Origin: Candidatus Fermentithermobacillaceae bacterium
Lineage (GTDB): Bacteria > Bacillota > Sulfobacillia > Fermentithermobacillales > Fermentithermobacillaceae
Reading direction: 5' to 3'
Length of the DNA stretch: 45,268 bases
Assembly (NCBI GenBank): GCA_012512325.1
Contig: JAAZEL010000051.1
Span: 1-45,268 of the forward strand
The notes beneath the pieces are model-generated. The model was not told the origin of the DNA. It made no database searches and saw nothing but the letters and a program-made list of their open reading frames with translations. A program made the translations under genes and the position numbers. Shown here piece by piece: positions 17,923 through 41,453 of the stretch (positions within the stretch are counted from its first letter, which is position 1; the number at the start of each line of letters is the position of its first letter).

Positions 17923-17936
17923 CTGAACATGGAAAC

Positions 17937-18023
17937 GGTTTGCGGGGGAACTCTTCGGAGTTGAGAAAGGTAAGACCTGACCCTTTGAACCTGTTGGTTA
18001 AGACCATCGTAGGGAAGCAAACC
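17937..18023 (+). promoter_or_regulatory. TPP riboswitch (THI element)
   Basis: P1 is GGTTTGC (17937-17943) with GCAAACC (18017-18023), perfect. Inside are the conserved blocks CGGGGGAAC, GTTGAGAAAGG, ACCCTTTGAACCTG and GGTTAAGACCATCGTAGGGAA. These match the TPP-binding aptamer (CUGAGA, ACCC..GAACCUG, UAAU.CC..CGUAGGGAA). It would repress the thi genes when thiamine pyrophosphate is abundant. Confidence 0.95.
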
Positions 18024-18046
18024 AGATACAAACAAGATGTTTGACT

Positions 18047-24227: not shown

Positions 24228-24612
24228 GATCAGTCTTGGTGGTAGGAGGAGCCGGCTCTCCAGGTACGGGAGCCGGGGCTGCAATTTCCCTTAGCCTGTT
24301 CATTTGTTTTACTACAATGAACAGGGCAAAGGCGATGATCACGAAGTCGACTACGGCAGTGATGAAGCTACCGTAATTGAGGGTTGCAGCGCCGACCACC
24401 CTAGCTTCCTCCAGGGTCTGATAGGTGTTTCCGTCCAGGGCCACAAACAGGTTTGAGAAATCTACCTTTCCCGTTACCAGTGAGACCAGAGGCATGATAA
24501 AGTCATTGACCAGAGACGTCACAATCTTGCCGAATGCGCCGCCGATAACAACCCCGATTGCAAGATCGATAACGTTGCCTTTCATCGCAAACTCTTTGAA
24601 CTCTTTCCACAT
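24214..24612 (-). CDS. mscL: Large-conductance mechanosensitive channel MscL (C-terminus altered)
   Basis: Homopentameric inner-membrane channel that opens under hypo-osmotic membrane tension. N-terminus [31 protein letters not shown] (first helix), [12 protein letters not shown], a short periplasmic loop, then [25 protein letters not shown] (second helix). The ATG at 24612 has CGGAGG 7 nt upstream. The usual C-terminal helix (LLTEIRDLL-like) is missing; instead a Pro-rich tail ends TTKTDHAAP. The final codons are read out of frame through the pepF remnant. The channel core is complete, and MscL tolerates loss of the C-terminal helix, so it may work. 132 aa. Confidence 0.92.
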
Positions 24613-33281: not shown

Positions 33282-35009
33282 CTAAGTCCTTCTTCCTCCT
33301 GATTTCTTCAACCCATTCAGAATCCTCTCTACCCGCTCAATTTCGGGCAGGACCTTGCCGGATTCAGGGTCAATCGCTACACAGGCACCGCCCACCATGG
33401 CAGCGCGGATCCGGCCGCATGCCGCCGGGTTCCCCTGAAGGTGCGGTGCGTCCAGGAGCCCTATCTTGATGGCGTAAGACAGCACCCTTGGATTGGTAAG
33501 GGCTGATACTGACTTGTCTTGTTCGTCCCCTTGCAATGCGTCGTTGATAAGCAGTTCAGGCACTATCTCGGGCAGCTGTGCGATGGCGTGCAACAGAATC
33601 TTGGCTTCTTCCACAAGGCGGTTCTTTCTTGCCTGAACCTCGTCGGACAGGGTCATGTCAGGCATGCCTTCCATGCAATTCCTGATTACCCCCTGGACGA
33701 TCTTGCAGCTTTCGATGATGTCCTCAGGAGTGGCAGCGTGATCACCTTCGCAGAAGCCCACGACGTGTACTATGTGGGGCTTGAGATTCATGCTCACCAA
33801 AGTCGAGGCAGCCAAATGACCCTTGGCCATGTCTAGGTCGGTGGGGAAACTGGCAAGTCCTGCCCTGACCTGGCGCCATACCCTGAAATCATGATCAACC
33901 AAAGACTCAATTAGCTCCAGTTTCGCCAGCATCTTTCCCAGATCCATGGCAGCGCCGGTTCCCGGAGGAGTATTGAACATGTACTGGGCGACGTAATCTT
34001 TGACGCCTAAGGATTTGGCATTAAGCGCACCCAGGTACGCCGCTGCCACCGCTACCACATCAGGCGCGTCCCGCAGGCTCCAATGATGGGCTTCGTTTAC
34101 TTCCACCGGGATGCCCCTTTCGGCATGCCGGGCGATGGCTTCCTGAGCCTCTGTCATGGCTTGTTCCACACCCCGCGGGCCCCGCCTGTCGAGGACGTTG
34201 TACCAGCAGAGGGGGATGGCAGTCCACGCGTTCTTTATGGTATTTAGCAGCATCTCGCCGAACCTGATCACGTCCCTGGTGCCGCTGTAGCATCTCATCA
34301 AGGGGTAATTCCCCCGGCGGGACGCTGCGTACAGCAACTCGAAGTCCCTCGCGCTCCTGACAGGCACTCCTCCGGCGCCGTCCTGATCAGGATCCATGTT
34401 TTCAGGGTGGAAGAAGTGCTCCTGGGCGTTCTGGTCCGGCCCGATGGAAACCACATCGAGCACTCCGGCTTCGGAAATCCTCTCAATCCCTGTCCTGGTC
34501 GCTTCCACCGATGGCAGTCCGAAGTGATGCCTTAGGAGCGGGTAGGGGGCCTTCCAGGCAATCCTGTCCACCAAGTTGTCAGGGAAATCAACCCGGACGG
34601 ATGAGCCTGTTTCGCCTTTGAGGTATCCCACTATCTCGCTTATATCCTCAGCCCCTGAGAATGCTCTTTCGAAGATGCCTGACGCCTTGGCTACCTCCGC
34701 CACCGGGGGAGTACCACCAAACACAAGTCGTTGGTGTGGATAGAGGCCTGCTTCATCCAAGACTTGTTTGAGCCGCGAGAAAAGCCGCCCTGCGGCGTCA
34801 GGATCCAGCCGGTACCCAATGGCCAGGATGTCCGGCTTGTTATCCTTGGTCCAAGCGACGATTTCTTCAGGCGATTTGGCAGCCCCTATGAACTCTGTCC
34901 GGTATCCGTGGGCTTCAGCAAGCTTCAGGAAGTTAAGTATGCCTGCCACATGAACGCAATCTCCGATAGATACTCCGGCAATAAGCACTCCTGTCTTGGT
35001 TCCTGTCAT
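33282..35009 (-). CDS. Cobalamin-binding protein resembling fused glutamate mutase S and E subunits
   Basis: A 575-aa single chain. Residues about 8-140 look like a B12-binding domain: GDCVHVAG near residue 17 (compare DxHxxG in glutamate mutase S), ILAIGYRLD at the SxL position and LVFGGTPP at the GG position. Residues about 200-575 resemble the catalytic barrel of glutamate mutase E: IPLCWYNVLDRRGPRGVEQA, GIPVEVNEAHH, FNTPPGTGAAMDLGKMLAKL, and NCMEGMPDMTLSDEVQARKN. In known glutamate mutases these are separate proteins. The histidine motif has one extra residue (DxxHxxG), so base-off cobalamin binding needs proof. The start ATG at 35009 overlaps the ODH stop (ATGA) and has AGGAGGAG upstream. 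Probably a carbon-skeleton mutase; the substrate is unknown. Confidence 0.65.
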   Translation of the reverse strand: MTGTKTGVLIAGVSIGDCVHVAGILNFLKLAEAHGYRTEFIGAAKSPEEIVAWTKDNKPDILAIGYRLDPDAAGRLFSRLKQVLDEAGLYPHQRLVFGGTPPVAEVAKASGIFERAFSGAEDISEIVGYLKGETGSSVRVDFPDNLVDRIAWKAPYPLLRHHFGLPSVEATRTGIERISEAGVLDVVSIGPDQNAQEHFFHPENMDPDQDGAGGVPVRSARDFELLYAASRRGNYPLMRCYSGTRDVIRFGEMLLNTIKNAWTAIPLCWYNVLDRRGPRGVEQAMTEAQEAIARHAERGIPVEVNEAHHWSLRDAPDVVAVAAAYLGALNAKSLGVKDYVAQYMFNTPPGTGAAMDLGKMLAKLELIESLVDHDFRVWRQVRAGLASFPTDLDMAKGHLAASTLVSMNLKPHIVHVVGFCEGDHAATPEDIIESCKIVQGVIRNCMEGMPDMTLSDEVQARKNRLVEEAKILLHAIAQLPEIVPELLINDALQGDEQDKSVSALTNPRVLSYAIKIGLLDAPHLQGNPAACGRIRAAMVGGACVAIDPESGKVLPEIERVERILNGLKKSGGRRT

Positions 35010-36127
35010 TGGGAATCTCCTCCTAGTACCAGTTCAACGATGGCATCCACATCCATTCCTGCAATTCCCATGGCTTGGGCGGTCCTGCCTTGACTCATGT
35101 AGTCTACGCCGTGGAGGGCGCTTGCCAAAGATATGGTTGCTTCGATTACCGGCACCTCCACCCCTGCGATCCTTGCAAAGGCCGCAAGGGGAACCAGGCT
35201 AAAGGGCACATCTTCAAAGATATACCTGTGATTCAGAGTGTCCGGGGCAGTAATTCCCACATACCCTGGGTTGTGTTGCACAGCCTCGTATAGCGTGTCT
35301 GCCTTGATACCGTAAGTGTGATGCATCCATTCAAGAGTTGACCGTGAGCGTACGCCGAAAGCTCTGGCTATGGCAAGCCTCTCCTCGTCCAAGGCTGCCA
35401 GGGCTCTCGCAACCGACGGGGTGATCCCACCCCTGTAATGCTCATACGGAAGGTTGCTTTCAATCCTGCCGGCGTTGAGGATCACAGGCAAGGGATGGAA
35501 CACTGCGCCGATATTATCAAACCCTGTAAAGAGCACATTTTCAGCCGGAACGAATCGAGGATATGCCTTTCTCAGCACCCGTAGGGCCTCTATGGTTCTC
35601 GTCGCCGGGAGGGCCGCTACGGGAACCCTGTGTTTGATGCCGTAAATGTGGGAAACACCTTCCGCTATAGTCCGGCTCGCATATATGAACGTACTGGCTT
35701 CAACGATGGTTACATCGCTATGGCAGTTATTCTTTAGCAGCACCTGCTTGAACTCAAGGGCACCGCCTGTCCGGCCGGGGTTTAGCACTACTATTTGCCC
35801 GTCAGAGAGATGTGGCGCCATCTGCGCTGCCACATCCCTATGGCCGGATGCCGGTACGGTCACCATGATCAAGCTGGCTTCGCGTACAGCCTCGCCCATG
35901 TCCGACGTCATCAGATTTGGCGTCGCAAACCCGGTGACCTGGCCCTCAAGCATAATACCCCCGATTTTGTTTAGCAAATCTATCTTGCTTTCCGACCTGT
36001 TCCATAGGTTTACATCAAAACCCTTAAGTGCCAGGAAACCTGCCATGGCTTGCCCGCCGTTTCCCGCACCTATTACTGCAATTGTTGAATCCGGGAGCAG
36101 TTCAGGAGATAGAATTCGCTCAGCCAT
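35006..36127 (-). CDS. NAD/NADP octopine/nopaline dehydrogenase family protein
   Basis: Opine-dehydrogenase-type oxidoreductase: an N-terminal Rossmann domain with GAGNGGQAMAGFLALKGFDV (about residue 20) and a C-terminal helical domain with FHPLPVILNAGRIE, WMHHTYGIKADTLYEAV and FEDVPFSLVPLAA, all family hallmarks. Such enzymes reductively join an amino group to a 2-keto acid, or run the reverse. I choose the ATG at 36127 (MAERILSP), preceded by AGGGGGG, over an upstream in-frame start. It sits between the ATP-grasp and mutase-like genes, translationally coupled to the latter. 373 aa. The substrate pair is unknown. Confidence 0.88.
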   Translation of the reverse strand: MAERILSPELLPDSTIAVIGAGNGGQAMAGFLALKGFDVNLWNRSESKIDLLNKIGGIMLEGQVTGFATPNLMTSDMGEAVREASLIMVTVPASGHRDVAAQMAPHLSDGQIVVLNPGRTGGALEFKQVLLKNNCHSDVTIVEASTFIYASRTIAEGVSHIYGIKHRVPVAALPATRTIEALRVLRKAYPRFVPAENVLFTGFDNIGAVFHPLPVILNAGRIESNLPYEHYRGGITPSVARALAALDEERLAIARAFGVRSRSTLEWMHHTYGIKADTLYEAVQHNPGYVGITAPDTLNHRYIFEDVPFSLVPLAAFARIAGVEVPVIEATISLASALHGVDYMSQGRTAQAMGIAGMDVDAIVELVLGGDSQ

Positions 36128-36168
36128 GTTACACCCCCCTCTAGTCTCTCTGATATGGCCGGCGCACA

Positions 36169-36186
36169 CCCGCCCTGAAGGGCGGG
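36169..36186 (-). other. Intra-operon GC-rich hairpin
   Basis: CCCGCCCT (36169-36176) and AGGGCGGG (36179-36186), an 8-bp perfect stem, in the 124-bp gap between the ATP-grasp and opine dehydrogenase genes, 42 bp before the latter. No U-tract; it could be an mRNA processing or stability element. Confidence 0.4.
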
Positions 36187-36251
36187 GTCCGGCCTTACTT
36201 AGTTTGGCTTGGCGTGGCCGTTGTTTTTCCGCTGCAACGCACTATGAAGGA

Positions 36252-37190
36252 TCATTTCAATGAGCTCGGGATAGCTGATTCCGCCGCTTCTGCAATCCAG
36301 GGGACTTCACTGTAGCCCGGCATCAGGCCTGGCAGCGTGCTGATTTCCAGGGCGAAAGCTTGCCCTTGATCTTCAGACACCCTTATGTCGACCCGCGCGA
36401 TATCCCGGCAACCAATTGCCTTGAACGCCCGTATGGCTAAGTCTTGAAGCTTGCGACTGAGCTCTTCCGGTATGGGCGCAGGGCATACAGGGGTGACGTT
36501 GTCACGGGATTTCACATCGTATGTGTACATGTGGCTGCCGTTAAACACTATTTCTTCCACCGGAAGGGCCATTGGCTCGGGATAGCCCACAACGGCTATT
36601 GTGAACTCTCGCCCGTTTATGTATTCTTCCACTAGCACGGGTGGCTCAAGTGAGTCCAGGAGCCTTTTTGCCATGGTTTTGGCTTGAACCGGACATTCGG
36701 TCACGCTTTCAGGATATATGCCTACGCTTGAGCCTTCGGCAGCGGGCTTCACTATCACCGGTGTGGACAGTTCATTACCCACCGCTTCCAAGCTGGGCTG
36801 CTTGTCGATGCTTCGGCTGTCGCAGATCACTGTAAACCGTGGAGTCGGGATGTTGTTGGCCATGAAAGCCATTTTGGAAATGTGTTTGTGCAGCCCGGCG
36901 AAGTGGGCGGCGGAACCTGAACCGGTAAACGGAATTCCGCTGAGTTCGAGCATGGCAGCTATGTTGGCCTGATCCTTTCTGGCACGGTAGCTCGTGGCGA
37001 TATTGAAAACCGCGTCAGGCTTAGCTGCTTCAAGGTCCAATAACAACTGCGGCCCTGCCTCGATTATATGAACATTGTAATTAAGGTCAGACAGAGCTTG
37101 CGCTACGGCTTGGCAAGTCACCTGGGCCTGGGTTTTCGAACCAGGCTCCTTGTAGCTGTTGGTTGACGAAGTGACAACCGCCATGTTCAT
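36252..37190 (-). CDS. D-alanine-D-alanine ligase-like ATP-grasp enzyme
   Basis: A 312-aa ATP-grasp ligase of the Ddl type, forming a peptide or amide bond through an acyl phosphate. Features: an N-terminal domain with PDAVFNIATSYRARKDQANI, IPFTGSGSAAHFAGLHKHISK, the ATP-binding loop VIVKPAAEGSSVGIYPES, VLVEEYINGREFTIAVVGYP, and the C-terminal ALEISTLPGLMPGYSEVPW. In true Ddl the last motif is E-x-N-T-xPG; here the Mg-binding Asn is Ser, and PGLT is PGLMPG. I therefore doubt it makes D-Ala-D-Ala. The ATG at 37190 has GGGAGGT at 7 nt. It is the first gene after the c-di-AMP riboswitch, 320 nt downstream. Confidence 0.8.
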   Translation of the reverse strand: MNMAVVTSSTNSYKEPGSKTQAQVTCQAVAQALSDLNYNVHIIEAGPQLLLDLEAAKPDAVFNIATSYRARKDQANIAAMLELSGIPFTGSGSAAHFAGLHKHISKMAFMANNIPTPRFTVICDSRSIDKQPSLEAVGNELSTPVIVKPAAEGSSVGIYPESVTECPVQAKTMAKRLLDSLEPPVLVEEYINGREFTIAVVGYPEPMALPVEEIVFNGSHMYTYDVKSRDNVTPVCPAPIPEELSRKLQDLAIRAFKAIGCRDIARVDIRVSEDQGQAFALEISTLPGLMPGYSEVPWIAEAAESAIPSSLK

Positions 37191-37292
37191 TGCATCAACC
37201 TCCCTGAAAAGAATCTTTGGTTCCTTCAGGTGCGCCCGTTGTATAACCCGTGTGTGATAGGCATAAGTGCGTGACAAATACGGCAATACACA

Positions 37293-37323
37293 CCTAAGGG
37301 GAATGCCTGCGCTTTCCCTTAGG
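37293..37323 (-). terminator. Leader hairpin between riboswitch and ATP-grasp gene
   Basis: CCTAAGGG (37293-37300) and CCCTTAGG (37316-37323), an 8-bp perfect stem in the minus-strand leader about 100 nt before the ATG. It is followed on the minus strand by TGTGTATTGCC, a weak U-tract. Candidate expression platform. Confidence 0.35.
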
Positions 37324-37512
37324 CGCATCAGAGCAAAGCTACGCTATACGCCGGTGTTCCACAGCAACTCACGCCACGGACCGCGGCCCGCTTATACGGG
37401 TAACCACATGAACTTGAACGTGAGACAGAGATTTATGGAGGCTCAACTGATTGATAGTGTTTGAGAATGTGCGGCACATGAGTGCCCCGGTTTGCCAGTG
37501 CCTCCCTTTGCC

Positions 37513-37656
37513 ACGCTTACGAGGTTAGCTGACGGGCTCGGGTCGAAAGGGACGTGACCCTACACGAAATCCCAGTTGCAAATCGGCAATGGGATTTCGC
37601 GATTAGCCCCGAAAAGTTGGGTCCCCCGCTCTCCGCTTCCGGAGATTCAGCGCCAA
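37513..37656 (-). promoter_or_regulatory. c-di-AMP riboswitch (ydaO/yuaA)
   Basis: Read on the minus strand, the hallmark blocks appear in order: GCGCTGAATCTCCGG, GAGAGCGGGGGACCCAAC, CGGGGCTAATC, GTAGGGTCACGTCCC, and the 3' block CCCGTCAGCTAACCTCGTAAG then CGT. These match the B. subtilis ydaO RNA nearly base for base in the conserved positions (GGGGGACCCAA, CGTCAGCTAACCTCGTAAGCG). The variable stem GAAATCCCA/TGGGATTTC sits where the family allows length variation. c-di-AMP riboswitches are usually OFF switches on osmotic, K+ and cell-wall genes. The next minus-strand genes are the ATP-grasp/opine dehydrogenase/mutase-like operon. Confidence 0.96.
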
Positions 37657-37683
37657 ACCTGATGAATTCTCACGCATAATCAA

Positions 37684-37713
37684 AGTATACAGTGAATTGC
37701 CCAAAAATGTCAA
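37684..37713 (-). promoter_or_regulatory. Promoter of the c-di-AMP-riboswitch operon
   Basis: On the minus strand TTGACA (37713-37708), an 18-bp spacer and TATACT (37689-37684), i.e. a perfect -35 and a 5/6 -10. Transcription would start near 37677, about 20 nt before the riboswitch. Confidence 0.8.
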
Positions 37714-38042: not shown

Positions 38043-39710
38043 TTAGCCTATCCCTAACTGTTTCATCTTGTTAATTACCGTGGCATGGGAGATGCCCAAG
38101 GCCTTGGCAATTTTCCTCGAAGAGGAATACTTGCTTGCTGCCTTGGTAAGGTAGTATTTTTCGATCTCCTCGATTAGCCCTGGCAAGCTCACCGGAATTT
38201 CAGCAGGGAGTTGCACATGCCGGTTGTCATCGTCTTGAGCGTCTTGACGCCGTGTTTCCTCGGGTACTGAAGTGCCGTTGCGCTCCACGGTCGCTTGGCG
38301 CATGAAGCCGGGAGGAGCATCGTGAGCTCTCGATGCCGGCCCTTCGATTAACAGATGGGCCGGCTCAATCCTATGTTCAGCAAGGACCGCCGCCCTTTGG
38401 ATCACATTTTGAAGCTCCCTCACGTTGCCCGGCCAATCGTGGAGCAGCAGCTTCTCCATGGCGCTTTCCGTGAGGTGTAAGTCCGGTTTTCCCAACTCCC
38501 TGGCAAGGAAGCTTACGAAATGCTCGGCAAGGAGCGGGATATCCTCGGTTCTGTGACGCAGGGGCGGAATCCAAATGGGAATTACGTTTAACCTGTAGAA
38601 CAGGTCTTCTCTGAAGGTGCCTTCTGAGATCATGCTTTCAAGATCCTTGTTGGTCGCGGAAATGATGCGCACGTCTATCTTGACTTCGTGACGCCCGCCT
38701 ATCCGGCGTATTCTTTGCTCCTGAATGGCCCGTAGGATCTTTGCTTGCAACGGAGGGGACAGGTCGCCTACTTCGTCGAGGAACAGAGTGCCGTGGGTCG
38801 CCAGTTCGAAAAGGCCCTGCTTTCCGCCGGACGAGGCGCCTGTGAACGCTCCTCTGTCGTAGCCGAAGAACTCGCTCTCAAGGAGAGAGTCGGGTATGGC
38901 AGCGCAGTTCACGGCTATGAAGGGGCCGTTCTTTCTGGCTGAATTCTTGTGGATAGCCCTGGCGAAGAGTTCTTTACCTGTCCCGCTTTCGCCCCTGAGC
39001 ATTACGCTCATGTTGGTGGGAGCCACGGCTTTGGCCAGGTTGATGGCATTGCCGAGGGCCTGGCTTCTTCCGATGATATCGTAGAAATCCACCAGGGCAG
39101 GGGGCCTCACGGACTGGATGAGTTGCCGCACATCGTCCAGCTCCCTCAATATCACAAGCGCTCCCGACGGAATCCCTTCTTCATTGGTTATAGTCCTTAT
39201 GCTGGTGACCACACGGATGCTCTTGCCTTGCCACGTGATGGTAACCTCAACGTTATCCCGGTCCTCGTCAAGAGGGAGGAGGGGTTCAAGCTTGCGGCTC
39301 TGCATTAGACTGACCAGGTTAGGCGGTTGTTGAGACGGGCCGAAGCCCAGCAATTTTCTCGCCTTCTTGCTGGCATAGGTAATGTTGTGCCATTGGTCAA
39401 CAACGAGAATGCCTTCGCTGATGTTCTCTCCGATGATATCCAAGGCTTTTTCCTTCTTCTCGTATTCCATTATGTCAACTTCTGCGATGTGCCCTAAGTC
39501 GCTGATCTCCGATCGGAGGCCGTTGACAAAGCGAGACCACCCAATGTCATCAGGCCATTCAACCTTGAAGAAAATATCAGGTGGGCTGACTTCGATGTTG
39601 AGCACATTGATGTGTTGTTTTCCCAAAGCCCGGAGGATGTCATAGATCATGCCAACCCTGTTTTCGGCCCCGCTAAACCTGATTCTCTTGATGTCTTCGG
39701 AACCTGCCAT
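38043..39710 (-). CDS. TyrR-like sigma-54-dependent transcriptional activator
   Basis: A 555-aa enhancer-binding protein. Domains in order: an ACT-like N-terminus (IKRIRFSGAENRVGMIYDIL, about 1-75), a PAS domain (EGILVVDQWHNITYASKKARKLLG, about 95-190), an AAA+ core (about 210-440) with Walker A GESGTGKE, ESEFFGYDRGAFTGASSGG and Walker B LFLDEVGDL, and a C-terminal HTH (SSRKIAKALGISHATVINKM). The GAFTGA loop is intact, so it can contact sigma-54; E. coli TyrR lost this. The layout is that of TyrR, which senses aromatic amino acids. It is divergent from tyrosine phenol-lyase and likely its activator. The start ATG at 39710 has only a weak ribosome binding site. Confidence 0.9.
   Translation of the reverse strand: MAGSEDIKRIRFSGAENRVGMIYDILRALGKQHINVLNIEVSPPDIFFKVEWPDDIGWSRFVNGLRSEISDLGHIAEVDIMEYEKKEKALDIIGENISEGILVVDQWHNITYASKKARKLLGFGPSQQPPNLVSLMQSRKLEPLLPLDEDRDNVEVTITWQGKSIRVVTSIRTITNEEGIPSGALVILRELDDVRQLIQSVRPPALVDFYDIIGRSQALGNAINLAKAVAPTNMSVMLRGESGTGKELFARAIHKNSARKNGPFIAVNCAAIPDSLLESEFFGYDRGAFTGASSGGKQGLFELATHGTLFLDEVGDLSPPLQAKILRAIQEQRIRRIGGRHEVKIDVRIISATNKDLESMISEGTFREDLFYRLNVIPIWIPPLRHRTEDIPLLAEHFVSFLARELGKPDLHLTESAMEKLLLHDWPGNVRELQNVIQRAAVLAEHRIEPAHLLIEGPASRAHDAPPGFMRQATVERNGTSVPEETRRQDAQDDDNRHVQLPAEIPVSLPGLIEEIEKYYLTKAASKYSSSRKIAKALGISHATVINKMKQLGIG

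Positions 39711-40046: not shown

Positions 40047-41453
<1,407 letters not shown>

Follow-up and report, generated by a model that had tools for sequence, protein, structure and literature searches.

A cyclic di-AMP riboswitch recurrently precedes genes for an opine dehydrogenase and a predicted fused B12-dependent mutase

Introduction

A predicted B12-dependent family, represented in 11 bacteria, was described in 2009 by Zhang, Rodionov, Gelfand and Gladyshev, in which an N-terminal B12-binding homologue always sits beside a PF02317 octopine/nopaline dehydrogenase, with a D-Ala ligase or an asparagine synthase nearby in several of the organisms (PMC2667541, in the part of that paper drawn on here). 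From a different direction, a tandem Na+/cyclic di-AMP (c-di-AMP) riboswitch in Dehalobacter controls a lysine-2,3-aminomutase for the osmolyte acetyl-beta-lysine (PMC9337991). Here we analyse a 45,268-nucleotide stretch of the genome of a Candidatus Fermentithermobacillaceae bacterium (contig JAAZEL010000051.1; assembly GCA_012512325.1, 1.66 Mb), referred to as ‘the window’, in which a c-di-AMP riboswitch stands ahead of genes for an ATP-grasp ligase (LIG), an opine dehydrogenase (ODH) and a putative B12-dependent mutase (MUT). The operon lies on the minus strand of the window, and its features, in the order of transcription, are as follows.

37684-37713, minus strand: sigma-70-type promoter, TTGACA-18-TATACT, 11/12 consensus
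37499-37662, minus strand: c-di-AMP (ydaO/yuaA) riboswitch aptamer (RF00379, 84.6 bits, E 2e-18)
37191-37498, minus strand: leader of 308 nt between aptamer and LIG, with conserved blocks in the related loci L003 and L005
37473-37486, minus strand: hairpin GGCACTCATGTGCC directly 3' of the aptamer, kept in the genus; a weak terminator-like candidate
37437-37442, minus strand: conserved GCCTCC, seen in an alignment of three leaders
36252-37190, minus strand: LIG, D-Ala-D-Ala-ligase-like ATP-grasp ligase (PF07478, 122.9 bits)
35006-36127, minus strand: ODH, opine dehydrogenase resembling N-(1-D-carboxylethyl)-L-norvaline dehydrogenase (CENDH) (PF02317, 159 bits)
33282-35009, minus strand: MUT, B12-binding domain (PF02310, at the N-terminus) and a predicted GlmE-like mutase TIM barrel

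Results

A recurrent gene pair, linked to the riboswitch in distant lineages

A search of GTDB genomes with the MUT protein returned 97 related loci, of which 80 were kept for neighbourhood counts; within its own class, MUT finds matches in 75 of 154 genomes, some of them weak and confined to the B12 domain. In 78 of the 80 loci ODH and MUT are same-strand neighbours (77 by script, plus L037, whose overlapping open frames had hidden it), the exceptions being L011 and L077, the latter at a contig end. A covariance model made from the operon-linked aptamers and scanned over 1.2 Mb places a riboswitch directly upstream of the operon, again on the same strand, in 27 of the 80, or 27 of the 69 that have more than 700 bp upstream of the operon, and detects no further copy in these loci (1.15 Mb). 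If riboswitches are taken to occur about once per Mb, chance would supply some 0.1 such placements; because the loci are related, any formal P value would be too strong.

The linkage includes Thermoanaerobacter and Thermoanaerobacterium, together with two loci from Armatimonadota (L079 and L052, the aptamer of the latter being truncated), and RF00379 and MUT share a contig in no fewer than ten families of the class (f1, f2, f7, f14, f16, f17, f24, f38, f46 and f48, matched by eye); a spread of this kind points to more than relatedness among the loci. One genome (L117) carries two ODH-MUT operons, each preceded by its own riboswitch; in Thermoanaerobacterium saccharolyticum and Thermoanaerobacter the aptamer leads an operon that has no LIG, and at L118 (4174-5853) it leads a MUT without ODH. 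The same contig as L118 also bears a MutL-ODH-MUT operon (L145, 3737-7934), for which no riboswitch is listed. The ODH-MUT pair is present, too, in an archaeal metagenome-assembled genome (L074). An earlier note on this DNA had read promoter, aptamer and genes as one regulated unit of three enzyme classes, and had held that rarity of the genes as neighbours in other genomes would count against it; the adjacency and the riboswitch linkage described above support the reading and pass this check.

Four further loci (L113, L114, L115 and L116) encode a fusion of B12, mutase and MutL parts, about 1210-1270 residues long, with a diverged ODH ahead of it; judged by sequence, this is a second, distant pairing of the ODH and MUT functions.

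The aptamer and its leader

By sequence and structure score the element in the window belongs to RF00379, its 84.6 bits standing against a curated cut-off of 38, and compensatory changes are seen at 14 of 29 consensus pairs among 15 operon-linked copies; its variable hairpin is larger than that of relatives. It begins 22 nt downstream of the promoter-like site, the TTGACA and TATACT hexamers of which are identical in two relatives (L003 and L005), where the spacer has partly diverged. Both the ydaO/yuaA aptamer and the promoter ahead of the operon had been recognised in the earlier note, and both hold. The genome also encodes a diadenylate cyclase.

No canonical terminator was found in the window leader. 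Both the tail of the aptamer (GGAGGC) and the Shine-Dalgarno sequence of LIG (GGGAGG) are complementary to the conserved GCCTCC, which is thus a possible switching strand, pairing with one or the other; we offer this as a lead only. Terminator-like hairpins with T-rich tails follow the aptamer in L015, L020, L051, L006, L023 and L118, and structures of this kind are clear behind the aptamer in, among others, Thermoanaerobacter and Caldanaerobacter. OFF behaviour has been shown for other c-di-AMP riboswitches (PMC9337991; PMC10117811), and from these precedents and the terminator-like hairpins in relatives we infer that the present one, too, would switch its operon off.

A second copy of RF00379 is found elsewhere in the window genome (G000:C61:2685-2823; L002 about 1501-1639), and the open reading frame (ORF) just 3' of it reads like a SleB-type cell-wall hydrolase.

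MUT has a predicted GlmE fold with an altered active site

The HxxG motif is invariant in the N-terminal B12 domain of MUT (H20-G23 in the window protein), and the region C-terminal of this domain has no Pfam assignment. A search of the PDB with phmmer gave no match to MUT, and a MUT profile matched mainly B12-binding domains. The AlphaFold2 model (pLDDT 90.6) has glutamate mutase epsilon (1cb7_B) as its best structural match (VIA Z 30.8 over 376 residues, at 17% identity), followed by lysine 5,6- and ornithine 4,5-aminomutase; Foldseek of the predicted model against GlmE gives an E value of 5e-16. The description of this gene as a ‘fused B12-mutase’ in the earlier note accordingly fits, a predicted GlmE fold being joined to an N-terminal B12 domain.

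We compared residue columns in 42 MUT sequences jointly aligned with GlmE, at 17% identity. The equivalents of GlmE Y177 and E330 are invariant. The R100 column holds an invariant Gln in all 42 (Q196 in the window protein), the E171 column is variable and contains no Glu in any of them, and the R66 and R149 columns are occupied by H162 and Y241, with invariant R160 and R239 two residues away. We take R66, R100 and R149 to form the ‘arginine claw’ of GlmE, and E171 likewise to have a functional role there. In the B12 aminomutases the lysine that binds pyridoxal phosphate (PLP) presumably lies 11 residues after the B12-ligand His, as an alignment with OraE indicates; it was not found in MUT, where A31 takes the expected place and no Lys is invariant within residues 1-130. 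A PLP-dependent aminomutase of the KamDE or OraSE kind is ruled out by this missing lysine, and a plain glutamate mutase is unlikely, its claw not being intact and E171 being lost.

On the strength of the GlmE fold, the altered claw, the lost E171 and the absent PLP lysine, we regard MUT as most probably a carbon-skeleton mutase whose substrate differs from that of glutamate mutase. An ordinary glutamate mutase accompanied by an incidental dehydrogenase would share the fold, and four MUT members of Thermoanaerobacter type do match the glutamate mutase family PF06368, weakly but above the cut-off (the window protein has no match above it, and no PF06368 gene was found in the window genome); however, the substitutions at R100 and E171 throughout the 42 sequences, the near-constant presence of ODH, and the existence of a second, diverged ODH/MUT-MutL pair make such an arrangement highly improbable.

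MutL/GlmL proteins are the usual partners of such mutases. A gene of this type directly adjoins MUT in L065, L067 and L075, and adjoins ODH-MUT in L145; in the window genome there are five MutL genes, and one lies within an apparent ornithine aminomutase operon.

ODH and the ATP-using third slot

ODH is 43% identical to CENDH (1BG6) over its full length (E 4e-90). H211 and D306, invariant in the ODH alignment, align with H202 and D297 of 1BG6, which we take to be its catalytic dyad, so that with the PF02317 helical domain and the His/Asp pair the protein has the sequence hallmarks of an opine dehydrogenase of CENDH type. The ODH and MUT frames overlap by ATGA, and the two genes are therefore probably translationally coupled.

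LIG starts at 37190, behind GGGAGG, and not at the ATG at 37328. Compared with the frame conserved in relatives, which runs on to 36199, that of LIG is broken near 36290 by a one-base frameshift that removes the last ~26 residues (region affected 36252-36310, minus strand); this may be either an assembly error or real. Scored on the C-terminally truncated reading, LIG falls below the curated NCBIfam cut-off for Ddl (176.2 against 243 bits). LIG-like genes occur in about 16 of the 80 loci, in upstream, downstream or divergent positions, and most loci have none, including the riboswitch-led L020, L015 and L051; LIG is thus optional, and dispensable to the system.

This bears upon a reading in which the product is a building block of the envelope or peptidoglycan: LIG would ligate D-Ala or a stem peptide with an opine or an unusual amino acid, and the process would be kept in step with wall synthesis by c-di-AMP. 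The resemblance of LIG to Ddl speaks for it, as do the ydaO riboswitches that often precede wall hydrolases (PMC10117811) and the hydrolase-like ORF behind the genome's own second copy; but the scarcity of LIG, even behind the riboswitch, the occurrence of ODH-MUT in an archaeon and a separate Ddl-type gene elsewhere in the window genome lead us to think an envelope product rather unlikely.

Eight loci other than those with LIG have an Asn-synthase-like gene near the pair, adjoining it in most, and in L052 such a gene lies between the truncated aptamer and ODH. The chemistry expected of LIG and of the Asn-synthase-like enzyme alike consumes ATP and acts at a carboxylate, and this favours a biosynthetic role. 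Three of the Asn-synthase-like neighbours (L057, L073 and L078) show Gly or Ser as replacements for the N-terminal Cys nucleophile, and one may speculate that they perform beta-lactam-synthetase-like chemistry on an opine. The same replacements might hint that the riboswitch is chiefly there for other purposes, the product being an opine-type metallophore (opine-like zincophores are reportedly built by opine dehydrogenases) or a signalling or antibiotic-like dipeptide. Against this, ODH is CENDH-like, and neither a nicotianamine-synthase-like gene nor a dedicated exporter recurs among the neighbour clusters that were annotated, the only ones in which recurrence was judged; we consider such a product a long shot.

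Neighbouring genes

Upstream of the operon, the window encodes a PrdR-like sigma-54 activator containing ACT and PAS domains (38043-39710, minus strand) and, on the opposite strand, a beta-eliminating lyase of tryptophanase/tyrosine phenol-lyase type (40074-41453, plus strand), a context that suggests amino-acid fermentation. These two genes, like the apparent ornithine aminomutase operon of the genome, would suit a catabolic unit, in which ODH oxidises opine-like N-carboxyalkyl amino acids and MUT passes the freed amino acid on to fermentation; enzymes of the CENDH type are, moreover, reversible. Control by c-di-AMP would nevertheless be unusual for fermentation genes, the LIG and Asn-synthase-like partners consume ATP, and no recurrent fermentation enzyme accompanies the pair in the annotated neighbour clusters, so that we regard catabolism as unlikely.

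V-type ATPase, Lnt, NFACT, P-type ATPase and FolC-like Mur ligase neighbours were annotated and judged to be lineage-specific or incidental. A V-type ATPase operon follows closely 3' of ODH-MUT in L012, L014, L024, L026, L028, L041, L045, L049, L056, L059 and L080, and a flavin mononucleotide riboswitch lies directly downstream of LIG-ODH-MUT in L013 (9691-9804) and L063 (9709-9823). The window further holds a thiamine pyrophosphate riboswitch (RF00059, 61.6 bits; 17934-18033, plus strand) and, as the earlier note had remarked, an mscL gene outside the operon (24277-24612, minus strand).

Discussion

The aptamer, the gene order, the recurrent linkage, the enzyme families and the predicted mutase fold can all be read from the sequence, and on this footing we propose a model for what the operon would do. 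MUT, taken as an adenosylcobalamin (AdoCbl)-dependent carbon-skeleton mutase akin to glutamate mutase yet different from it, would rearrange an amino acid; ODH would use NAD(P)H to join an amino acid to a 2-keto acid, giving an N-carboxyalkyl amino acid, and an ATP-using step would cap a carboxylate, by means of LIG in the window and of an Asn-synthase-like enzyme, or nothing, elsewhere. The riboswitch would turn this biosynthetic operon off, such that the product is made at low c-di-AMP (osmotic stress) and repressed at high. The direction of switching, the order of the steps, the substrate, the product and its physiological role are the conjectural parts of this scheme. That the product is an osmolyte or an opine-type compound is plausible; our leading guess is an uncharacterised amino-acid-derived osmolyte, because c-di-AMP signals the absence of osmotic stress and because an osmolyte aminomutase is under a c-di-AMP riboswitch in Dehalobacter (PMC9337991).

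Several observations weigh against this model. About 60% of the loci have no detectable c-di-AMP riboswitch, so c-di-AMP control is no fixed part of the pathway and the enzymes would be older or broader than the switch; the expression platform of the window leader is ill-defined, and LIG carries a frameshift in this assembly. The organism appears on reading to have ornithine-degradation genes, which leaves room for a catabolic role, and other c-di-AMP riboswitches govern wall hydrolases and K+/amino-acid transporters (PMC10117811), which allows for an envelope role. Weighing both sides, we see the chances as evenly balanced that this is a c-di-AMP-repressed operon making a product of MUT, ODH and an ATP-using step, most likely an amino-acid-derived osmolyte. 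More tentatively, and with doubt prevailing, one may imagine a new class of bacterial compatible solute: an amino acid rearranged with B12, N-carboxyalkylated, and either amidated or ligated. Its synthesis would be gated by c-di-AMP across many anaerobic Bacillota as well as Armatimonadota, and would depend on an undescribed carbon-skeleton rearrangement by the mutase.

An AdoCbl mutase family of unknown substrate has been a standing prediction since 2009, and the recurrent c-di-AMP riboswitch offers a physiological handle on it, through osmotic or envelope stress. The presence of riboswitch and gene pair in many distant bacteria suggests a widespread, uncharacterised route to an osmotic-stress or envelope compound; its pursuit might uncover both a novel osmolyte and a novel B12 rearrangement, and would add a biosynthetic class to the targets of c-di-AMP riboswitches. 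Genetics is possible in Thermoanaerobacterium saccharolyticum and Thermoanaerobacter.

Among known systems, glutamate mutase GlmES (1cb7, 6h9e) resembles MUT in its GlmE fold, as predicted for MUT, its B12 Rossmann domain, the residues equivalent to E330 and Y177 and, in some loci, a GlmL-type partner; in MUT, however, S and E are fused in the order B12 domain-barrel, the R66/R100/R149 columns read H/Q/Y, E171 is lost and PF06368 is unmatched in the window protein. ODH is close to CENDH in full-length identity and in its dyad, but differs in being nearly always accompanied by a B12 mutase. The Dehalobacter system (PMC9337991), by comparison, has another type of mutase, a tandem Na+ sensor and no opine dehydrogenase. 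We found no paper linking a c-di-AMP riboswitch with opine dehydrogenase, nopaline or glutamate mutase, in a search that did not take in the ydaO target lists of Block 2010 and Nelson 2013, which may already name these genes.

Also close is the family of 2009 (PMC2667541), which the window system matches in adjoining a PF02317 gene and in having Ddl or Asn synthase nearby, a likeness of gene context. The earlier note's statement that the combination is not known from the literature may stand for the riboswitch but not for the gene set, which was predicted then; the part of PMC2667541 drawn on here makes no mention of a c-di-AMP riboswitch, a GlmE fold, a MutL link or a physiological proposal. 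Where that family counted 11 bacteria, the present one extends over 80 loci, Armatimonadota and an archaeal genome among them. What this analysis adds is the riboswitch link, the predicted GlmE fold with its altered claw, the link to MutL and the wide distribution.

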